Source of the DNA: Haloplanus rubicundus
Lineage (GTDB): Archaea; Halobacteriota; Halobacteria; Halobacteriales; Haloferacaceae
Direction of reading: 5' to 3'
Length of the DNA: 64,000 nt
Assembly (NCBI RefSeq): GCF_003342675.1
Contig: NZ_CP031148.1
Coordinates: 496,001 to 560,000 of the forward strand
Under the pieces are notes generated by a model. The model was given only the letters and a program-made list of their open reading frames with translations. It made no database searches and was not told the origin of the DNA. The translations under genes and the position numbers were made by a program. Below, in pieces: positions 2,996 through 53,137 of the stretch (position 1 is the first letter of the stretch; each line of letters begins with the position of its first letter).

Positions 2996-3071
2996 GCCAA
3001 GGTGGCAGAGTCCGGCCTAACGCAGCGGCCTGCAGAGCCGCCCATCGCCGGTTCAAATCCGGCCCTTGGCT
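2996..3071 (+). tRNA. tRNA-Cys (anticodon GCA)
   Basis: A complete cloverleaf is visible. The acceptor stem is GCCAAGG with CCTTGGC and the discriminator is T, as usual for Cys. The anticodon stem GCGGC/GCCGC holds the loop CTGCAGA with GCA at 3032-3034. The T-arm is GCCGG-TTCAAAT-CCGGC. CCA is not encoded and there is no intron. The position behind 5S is the usual haloarchaeal one. A TATA-like cttaagc at 2963-2969 could start its own transcript. The last two bases also form the foot of the hairpin that follows. Confidence 0.96.
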
Positions 3072-3101
3072 CTTCTGTCCGAGCGAAGCGAGGACGAAGA
3101 G
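3070..3101 (+). repeat. Post-tRNA hairpin with GAGCGAAGCGA loop
   Basis: CTCTTC (3070-3075) pairs with GAAGAG (3096-3101). After one unpaired T (3076), GTCC (3077-3080) pairs with GGAC (3092-3095), closing the 11-base loop GAGCGAAGCGA (3081-3091). The stem begins inside the tRNA, at its last paired base. A hairpin of the same design, including the bulged T and a related loop, follows tRNA-Gly at 46928-46959. It could be a terminator, a processing signal or an integration scar. Confidence 0.7.
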
Positions 3102-3107
3102 CCGGAC

Positions 3108-3156
3108 GGCCGTGATTTGAACTAGGGAGCGAAGCGACCGTCGTTCAAATCCGGCC
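3108..3156 (+). repeat. Mirrored copy of the tRNA-Cys T-arm around AGGGAG...CGACCG
   Basis: An inverted copy of the tRNA-Cys T-loop, GATTTGAAC (3114-3122), faces a direct copy, GTTCAAATCCGGCC (3143-3156). GGCC at 3108-3111 extends the palindrome. The 20-base centre contains AGGGAG (3124-3129) and CGACCG (3135-3140). The same centre motifs lie between inverted arms behind tRNA-Gly and near 53.1 kb. The remaining bases up to the next gene at 3242 show no gene. Confidence 0.7.
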
Positions 3157-3241
3157 ATCGTTTCGTCAAGACGATTCGAGCCGAGAGATATCTCCATCTT
3201 CGTCCCGAAATGCGACGACTGCCCGGACCACGCTCGCGACT

Positions 3242-4308: not shown

Positions 4309-4367
4309 GGATGCCGAGTGAGGAGGGAGGATAGTTAACTGTCCGTTTCGACGGCCCGGCCGACCGT

Positions 4368-46857: not shown

Positions 46858-46928
46858 GCGCCGTTGGTCCAGTGGTAGGACAGTGGCTTCCCAAGCCACT
46901 AGCCCGGGTTCAATTCCCGGACGGCGCA
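46858..46928 (+). tRNA. tRNA-Gly (anticodon CCC)
   Basis: The acceptor stem is GCGCCGT with ACGGCGC and discriminator A. The anticodon stem GTGGC/GCCAC holds TTCCCAA with anticodon CCC. The T-arm is CCGGG-TTCAATT-CCCGG. There is no intron or encoded CCA. Its 3' 25 bases are repeated in progressively decayed form three times downstream. Confidence 0.95.
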
Positions 46929-46959
46929 TGATTGTCTCGAACGTAGTGAGAGACATCAT
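46928..46959 (+). repeat. Post-tRNA hairpin with GAACGTAGTGA loop
   Basis: ATGAT (46928-46932) pairs with ATCAT (46955-46959). After one unpaired T (46933), GTCTC (46934-46938) pairs with GAGAC (46950-46954), closing an 11-base loop GAACGTAGTGA. It starts on the tRNA discriminator base. Bulge position, inner GTC..C stem and loop length match the hairpin behind tRNA-Cys, although the outer stem differs. Confidence 0.7.
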
Positions 46960-46963
46960 CGCC

Positions 46964-47028
46964 CCGGGAATTGAATCAGGGAGTGAAGCGAGCGAACGCG
47001 AGCGGAACGACCGTGGTTCAATTCCCGG
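46964..47028 (+). repeat. Mirrored copy of the tRNA-Gly T-arm around AGGGAG...CGACCG
   Basis: CCGGGAATTGAA (46964-46975) is a perfect 12-base inverted copy of TTCAATTCCCGG (47017-47028), which itself repeats the tRNA-Gly T-arm. The centre contains AGGGAG (46978-46983), a purine-rich GCGA-type stretch and CGACCG (47008-47013). The arrangement is the same as behind tRNA-Cys. Confidence 0.75.
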
Positions 47029-47175
47029 ACGGCGCACTCCCTGCGGTCGTTTGCCGTCCGTAGTCCCCCTCGCTCACTCCGTTCGCTCACGGGACTCCCG
47101 GACAGCGCACCCCCTGCGGTCGTTTGCCGTCCGACGTCCCGTTCGCTTCGCTCACGGGACTCCCGGACAGCGCAC
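47012..47175 (+). repeat. Array of decayed tRNA-Gly 3' ends
   Basis: After the tRNA, its 3' end recurs at 47015-47037 (GGTTCAATTCCCGGACGGCG), 47091-47110 (GGGACTCCCGGACAGCGCAC) and 47156-47175 (identical to the second). Between them CTGCGGTCGTTTGCCGTCCG occurs twice (47041-47060 and 47114-47133). The last unit holds the hairpin GTCCCGT-TCGCTTCGCTC-ACGGGAC (47136-47160), whose loop is the complement of GAGCGAAGCGA. The whole 46929-47225 interval is free of genes. Confidence 0.75.
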
Positions 47176-53095: not shown

Positions 53096-53137
53096 CTTTT
53101 ACCAGGGAGCGAGCGGAGCGAGCGACCGCAGTAAAAG
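53096..53137 (+). repeat. Mirrored hairpin with AGGGAG...CGACCG centre between convergent genes
   Basis: CTTTTAC (53096-53102) pairs with GTAAAAG (53131-53137). The 28-base centre contains AGGGAG (53104-53109), GCGAGCGGAGCGAGCG-type purines and CGACCG (53123-53128), as in the tRNA-Cys and tRNA-Gly tails, but no tRNA is near. It lies between the ends of two convergent genes and has T-runs on both strands, so it may serve as a bidirectional terminator. Confidence 0.7.

Follow-up and report, generated by a model that had tools for sequence, protein, structure and literature searches.

Many tRNA genes of Halobacteriales are followed by short, gene-less hairpin units, in which the outer arms are copied from the 3' part of the adjacent tRNA and the tip alone is constant. 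The units were recognized in a stretch of 64,000 nucleotides (the window) from a haloarchaeal genome of 3.77 Mb, and we regard it as an even bet that they are tRNA-anchored, gene-less hairpin cassettes of Halobacteriales, which carry target-copied arms, are lost by recombination between repeats and are partly kept as trailers. They form an ordered, structured and variable region behind many tRNAs of the host, and half of the Halobacteriales genomes sampled have such a region.

Units in the window and their link to tRNA genes

A sequence-only reading of the window had claimed three mirror elements, and all of them are present, with inverted arms around an AGGGAG..CGACCG centre at 3108-3156, 46964-47028 and 53096-53137. 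The arms consist of tRNA-Cys T-loop sequence at the first site, of CCGGGAATTGAA on the left and TTCAATTCCCGG on the right, with 12 perfect pairs, at the second, and of CTTTTAC/GTAAAAG at the third; the rest of the window holds one further AGGGAG..CGACCG pair, at 4324, which lacks arms. The same reading held that the centre always runs AGGGAG, GCGA-rich sequence and CGACCG, and that the arms are taken from local sequence. The motif pair indeed occurs at all three sites, but many copies carry tips such as GCAGCTTCGCTGC; local arms are found at the tRNA sites, but at 53096-53137 the arms CTTTTRC/GYAAAAG are constant across copies.

The unit at 46964-47028 belongs to tRNA-Gly(CCC), which was identified by ARAGORN and Rfam (RF00005) at 46858-46928 of the plus strand, with tRNA positions 54-73 at 46909-46928. 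Downstream on this strand lies hairpin 1 (46929-46960), GTCTC-GA-ACGTAGT-GA-GAGAC, whose arms are closed by tandem GA according to its sequence, RNA folding and class statistics, followed by the left arm CCGGGAATTGAA (46964-46975), which on comparison is the reverse complement of tRNA-Gly positions 54-65. The conserved centre (46978-47013), delimited by pattern search, covariation and folding, continues the helix with tandem G-A pairs, and the right arm with the direct copy of tRNA-Gly positions 54-73 (47017-47036) is identical to the tRNA at 20/20 positions. Two units of a second, pyrimidine type come next by sequence, also on the plus strand, at 47037-47109 and 47110-47174, both terminating in the tRNA 3'-end copy CCCGGACAGCGCA.

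The tRNA-Cys(GCA) gene (ARAGORN, Rfam) is located at 2996-3071 of the plus strand, with positions 54-73 at 3052-3071. Its unit, on the same strand, contains hairpin 1 at 3073-3102 (GTCC-GA-GCGAAGC-GA-GGAC by sequence, the minimum-free-energy fold favouring a different pairing), a left arm at 3113-3122 that matches the reverse complement of the T-loop, the centre AGGGAGCGAAGCGACCG, found by pattern search at 3124-3140, and at 3144-3163 the right arm with a degenerate direct copy of the tRNA-Cys 3' end (16/20). A unit begins directly behind the final tRNA base with hairpin 1, followed by the T-loop and 3' T-stem in inverted copy, the centre, and a direct copy of positions 54-73. Most units are 90-140 bp long, and they occur singly or in tandem.

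For searches beyond the window, a strict pattern was defined as GAAYCAGGGAG-N3-32-CGACCGTGGTTC. Among 170 distinct strict copies, 157 follow a tRNA of the same strand by no more than 600 bp, at a median distance of 54 bases and behind 33 tRNA types. The other 13 are found at contig or locus edges, behind what look, from their letters, like displaced tRNA 3' fragments, or at a non-tRNA GGTTCGAACC site, the last in Natronorubrum texcoconense. In this species, two units stand at 6799-6935 of L092 (reverse strand) behind non-tRNA sequence with GGTTCGAACCGG, accompanied by local direct copies, and the site is a candidate case of insertion away from a tRNA.

The copies are specific to the tRNA that they follow. 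Right copies identical to tRNA positions 54-73 at 20/20 positions number 78, and position by position the agreement with the own tRNA, well above that with other tRNAs, extends over 54-73 in the right copy and from 54 to about 64-65 in the left arm. At position 57, where tRNAs have A or G, the match to the own tRNA is 96-97%, compared with 63-64% for other tRNAs; the left arm matches its own tRNA at 10.4 of 12 positions and others at 8.9, the own-specific positions being 57 and 62-64. In comparison with own and other tRNAs, the inverted copy stops short of the acceptor stem, and hairpin 1 as a full reverse copy of that stem was rejected, as its own-tRNA matches are no better than those to other tRNAs. 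In the host genome, taken without selection, 17 of 45 tRNA genes have both a direct copy (at least 16/20) and an inverted copy (at least 10/12), and in a larger set of 209 tRNAs, biased by selection, a tRNA 3'-end copy is found on the downstream side of 156 and on the upstream side of 1.

Intergenic DNA that is GC-rich and of low complexity may contain inverted repeats by chance, and this has to be considered, for the centre is often of low complexity and such purine runs recur across the host genome. The centre motif (gap 0-30) occurs 74 times in the whole host genome, compared with 15 times for a reversed-pattern control. Perfect arms of at least 10 bp surround 10 of 56 examined host-genome centres against 0.01 expected, and arms of at least 7 bp surround 16 of the 56 against 0.22, an excess of about 70-fold, so that the claim of centres lying between inverted arms beyond chance is upheld. 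Since the arms are moreover tRNA-specific and the reversed form of the strict pattern is found in none of 293 genomes, a chance origin is ruled out by the control and the arm statistics, and its probability is negligible.

Some details of the copies were recorded in addition. Right copies often have one or two extra T-loop bases (TTCACAATCC, TTCAACATCC, TTCGACATTCC; L101, L114, L143, L165, L197 and others), as though the T-loop in the copy were undergoing inactivation. In L013, downstream of tRNA-Phe, a tRNA-Phe fragment reaching from the anticodon arm to CCCCC is split by a hairpin exactly before GTTCAAATC, a junction that is also found in units. A module resembling CCCACTTTTTRC..GYAAAAACGTGGGGAAAAA is common to this Phe trailer and a Pro trailer (L301), and a diverged form exists at a non-tRNA site, L032 1501.

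Distribution, folding and variation of the units

The strict pattern is present in 144 of 293 Halobacteriales genomes, representing 62 of 87 genera. In a survey of the phylum, it was found in 27 of 295 genomes, all of them within Halobacteriales, and was absent from every sampled genome of the phylum outside this order. In an independent scan, the named records were all haloarchaea or haloarchaeal MAGs, except for one MAG labelled only Euryarchaeota. Because 2.9 million IMG/VR viral contigs contain no exact match to the strict pattern and the window unit has no blastn match in phage or plasmid collections, a viral or plasmid origin of the unit was rejected. A known RNA family was likewise dismissed, as Rfam 15 gave only rRNA and tRNA matches over the window, and none to the unit above the gathering score.

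The centre is a paired helix rather than a loop, and includes both tandem G-A pairs and a tip stem that covaries. In an alignment of 27 copies restricted to one ungapped tip length, 13 bases, 93.3% of cells are in standard pairs, compared with 27-47% when the partner is slid, and two-sided changes number 50 against 17.4 after shuffling; a separate shuffle test was also run. Four of the five tip-stem pairs vary on both sides (GCAGC/GCTGC, GGAGC/GCTCC, GCGCC/GGCGC, GCAAC/GTTGC). The tip stem and the conserved inner stem are separated by GA on either side, which would allow tandem G-A pairing, and the 27 aligned sequences agree with a helix in which a single G on the 3' side stays unpaired. A kink-turn reading of the tandem GA pairs was rejected by inspection, because there is no 3-nt bulge.

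Hairpin 1 stems of at least 4 bp closed by GA on both sides occur in 60 of 123 trailers on the sense strand and in 1 on the antisense strand, with 1.35 after shuffling, and one inner pair is a nearly invariant T-G wobble over C-G (146 T versus 11 C). This strand bias of hairpin 1, together with the T-G bias, indicates that the folded form is that of the tRNA-sense strand, as RNA or single-stranded DNA. In the outer arms, both arms changed together at 8 positions and one arm only at 358; strong selection on outer-arm pairing is unsupported, as one-arm changes far exceed paired ones.

At least two downstream copies are present at 60 of 209 examined tRNAs; in 28 tandem arrays the tRNA-proximal copy resembles the tRNA more closely than the last copy does, and in 9 less closely. 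Units of the second type are pyrimidine-rich on the sense strand (..CTCCCGCTCG..CGCGGGAG..) and end in a shorter tRNA 3' copy (~61-73). They were seen at 47037-47174 of the window, in L294 and L310, and at C2:3316380-3316655 of the host genome, where BLAST matches to the second-type part number four, with 79-bp spacing. Within Haloplanus, the tRNA-Gly(CCC) site has a centre-type unit and two pyrimidine-type units in the window and L209, one centre-type unit and a pyrimidine-type remnant in L214, the pyrimidine type only in L211 and L212, a remnant in L215, and no unit in L213.

Comparison of filled and empty orthologous sites, which had been proposed as a check, yielded empty sites with exact boundaries, but did not establish insertion. 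At tRNA-Leu(CAA) of Halorubrum, the unit is present in most species (L312 and others) and exactly absent in L333 and L338, in which the end of the tRNA joins directly to the sequence that elsewhere lies 3' of the direct copy; L334 retains hairpin 1 alone. As most Halorubrum species are filled, L333 and L338 are more simply explained as precise losses between the 20-nt direct repeats, and precise deletions between short direct repeats have been documented in Haloquadratum (PMC3119063). The filled Halorubrum trailer is 81-100% conserved in 15-base blocks, compared with 10-40% beyond it, which suggests constraint, with the qualification that picking the loci by DNA similarity gives preference to sites that are filled and conserved.

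Comparison with known elements and possible origin

The units resemble elements integrated at tRNAs by tyrosine integrases (SNJ2, pT26-2 and SSV types) in having a direct repeat of the tRNA 3' end, an intact tRNA and exact boundaries. They differ in being ~100 bp long and gene-less, with no integrase between the repeats, in having an inverted T-arm copy and a tip common to tRNA types, and in occupying many tRNAs per genome (17/45); nor was an attP on a virus or plasmid found in IMG/VR or the phage and plasmid collections. Integron attC sites are hairpins with variable arms and short conserved motifs, and their units are arranged serially at an anchor, all of which is true of the units described here as well; attC sites also have an unpaired base, to which the unpaired G on the 3' side of the helix may correspond. 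Unlike attC cassettes, these are gene-less and anchored at a tRNA, no integron integrase was identified, and instead of the attC core GTTRRRY/RYYYAAC the conserved ends are GGTTCRAAT/ATTYGAAYC. REP-type bacterial repeats and related stem-loop families are repeated extragenic hairpins too; the REP-type sequence is constant including the stem, whereas the stems of the present units repeat sequence of the tRNA next to them.

The MITEs, PATEs and small mobile repeats (SMRs) of Haloquadratum are also short, gene-less, palindromic and haloarchaeal, but their ends or palindromes are constant and they are not linked to tRNAs (PMC3119063). That the elements are unlike an IS or MITE was correctly noted from the first, for the arms of the tRNA units follow the neighbouring tRNA and the tip is constant; constant terminal inverted repeats are lacking, and what is repeated directly is the tRNA end (20 nt, positions 54-73) rather than a short target-site duplication of transposase type. 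As in quasipalindromes made by template switching, the arms are templated locally, but the inserted sequence is not all local, the tip being conserved across 62 genera. Small repeats of haloarchaea (PMC3119063) and integration at archaeal tRNA 3' ends (PMC8371274) have been described, but the open-access literature yielded no description of a unit that lacks genes, has both its inverted and its direct arm templated by a tRNA and carries a conserved tip.

In the cassette reading favoured here, units would be gained at the tRNA 3' end through a target-copying process, either by a recombinase or by template switching in DNA repair, and as the T-loop sequence is common to all tRNAs, the same tips would recur behind different ones. 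Single units would be lost through recombination between the 20-nt direct repeats, and the tRNA-sense strand would fold into stable hairpins, which some lineages may keep by selection, probably as the trailer of the tRNA transcript. Template switching or terminal-hairpin insertion, as suggested earlier, is a possible but unproven origin, and the insertion mechanism as a whole is unproven: no enzyme has been linked to the units, no new insertion has been polarised, and the empty Halorubrum sites fit loss as well as gain. More tentatively still, the units may be order-wide mini-elements, parasitic on tRNAs or serving them, that build their own arms from the host tRNA 3' end, so that one conserved tip could settle behind any tRNA and leave that tRNA unaltered; they would then represent a kind of mobile element with target-templated ends.

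Three other explanations account for part of these observations. A structure of the trailer RNA for transcription or 3' processing, vertically inherited with little mobility, in which the arms match because tRNAs are conserved, is rather unlikely, although the conservation across Halorubrum, the covarying tip stem, the sense-strand-specific GA hairpins, the near-invariant T-G wobble and the two RNA 3' ends that a study of Haloferax volcanii reports behind tRNA-Pro (PMC7237163) all speak for it. It explains conservation but not patchy arrays of several types: about half of the host tRNAs lack a unit, the tRNA-Gly(CCC) trailer varies within the genus of the window from one unit to other types to none, and the first unit is missing in two Halorubrum species; furthermore, second-type loops are pyrimidine-rich on the sense strand, leaving some units uncovered by an RNA-only explanation. 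We deem it unlikely that the units are attachment-site scars or minimal satellites of tyrosine-recombinase elements, with a T-loop-recognising integrase inserting small circles and the direct copies being attL/attR. Archaeal att sites are preferentially tRNA 3' ends including the T stem-loop, the haloarchaeal SNJ2 att being very short (PMC8371274), the direct copy runs from the start of the T-loop to the tRNA end, and the order and polarity of arrays fit serial insertion at the tRNA. Against this stand the size of ~100 bp, the lack of genes and the zero matches in viral, phage and plasmid collections; a conservative integrase would account for the direct copy but not the inverted one, nor for one tip behind 33 tRNA types with every tRNA intact.

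Template switching during replication alone, in which tRNA 3' ends would stall forks and yield direct-inverted-direct copies with no element involved, appears improbable. Such an order would be typical of the process, one study documents that template switching creates and maintains hairpin arms (PMC8794818), and similar local copying yields several unit types. Both copies are accounted for, but the conserved tip is not, since GAAYCAGGGAG..CGACCGTGG, found across 62 genera and 33 tRNA types, is not local and needs a donor or selection. The units offer a natural system for studying how a conserved hairpin gains target-copied arms and how tRNA 3' ends attract insertions, and they bear on whether haloarchaeal tRNA trailers hold structured RNAs. 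They also mean that short tRNA-end direct repeats in haloarchaea are, alone, no evidence of a lost provirus or island.

Other repeats that carry the centre

The hairpin at 53096-53137 (plus strand), located between convergent genes, represents a non-tRNA family, CTTTTRCC-AGGGAG..CGACCG-CAGYAAAAG, as judged by its sequence, genome searches and folding. Members of the family were found in 11 of 195 haloarchaeal genomes. Their arms do not vary except at one covarying pair, and their tips vary but are largely self-complementary in the copies listed. As the centre occurs in both this family and the tRNA units, AGGGAG..CGACCG is a module common to at least two hairpin families. In addition, GCAACGC-AGGGAGCRAAGCGACCG-AGTAGCGCAGTAGGGAGGGGATACAGYG, which has the centre inside, occurs in three near-identical genomic copies (around position 1501 of L029, L036 and L037); this repeat is possibly the end of an insertion sequence.
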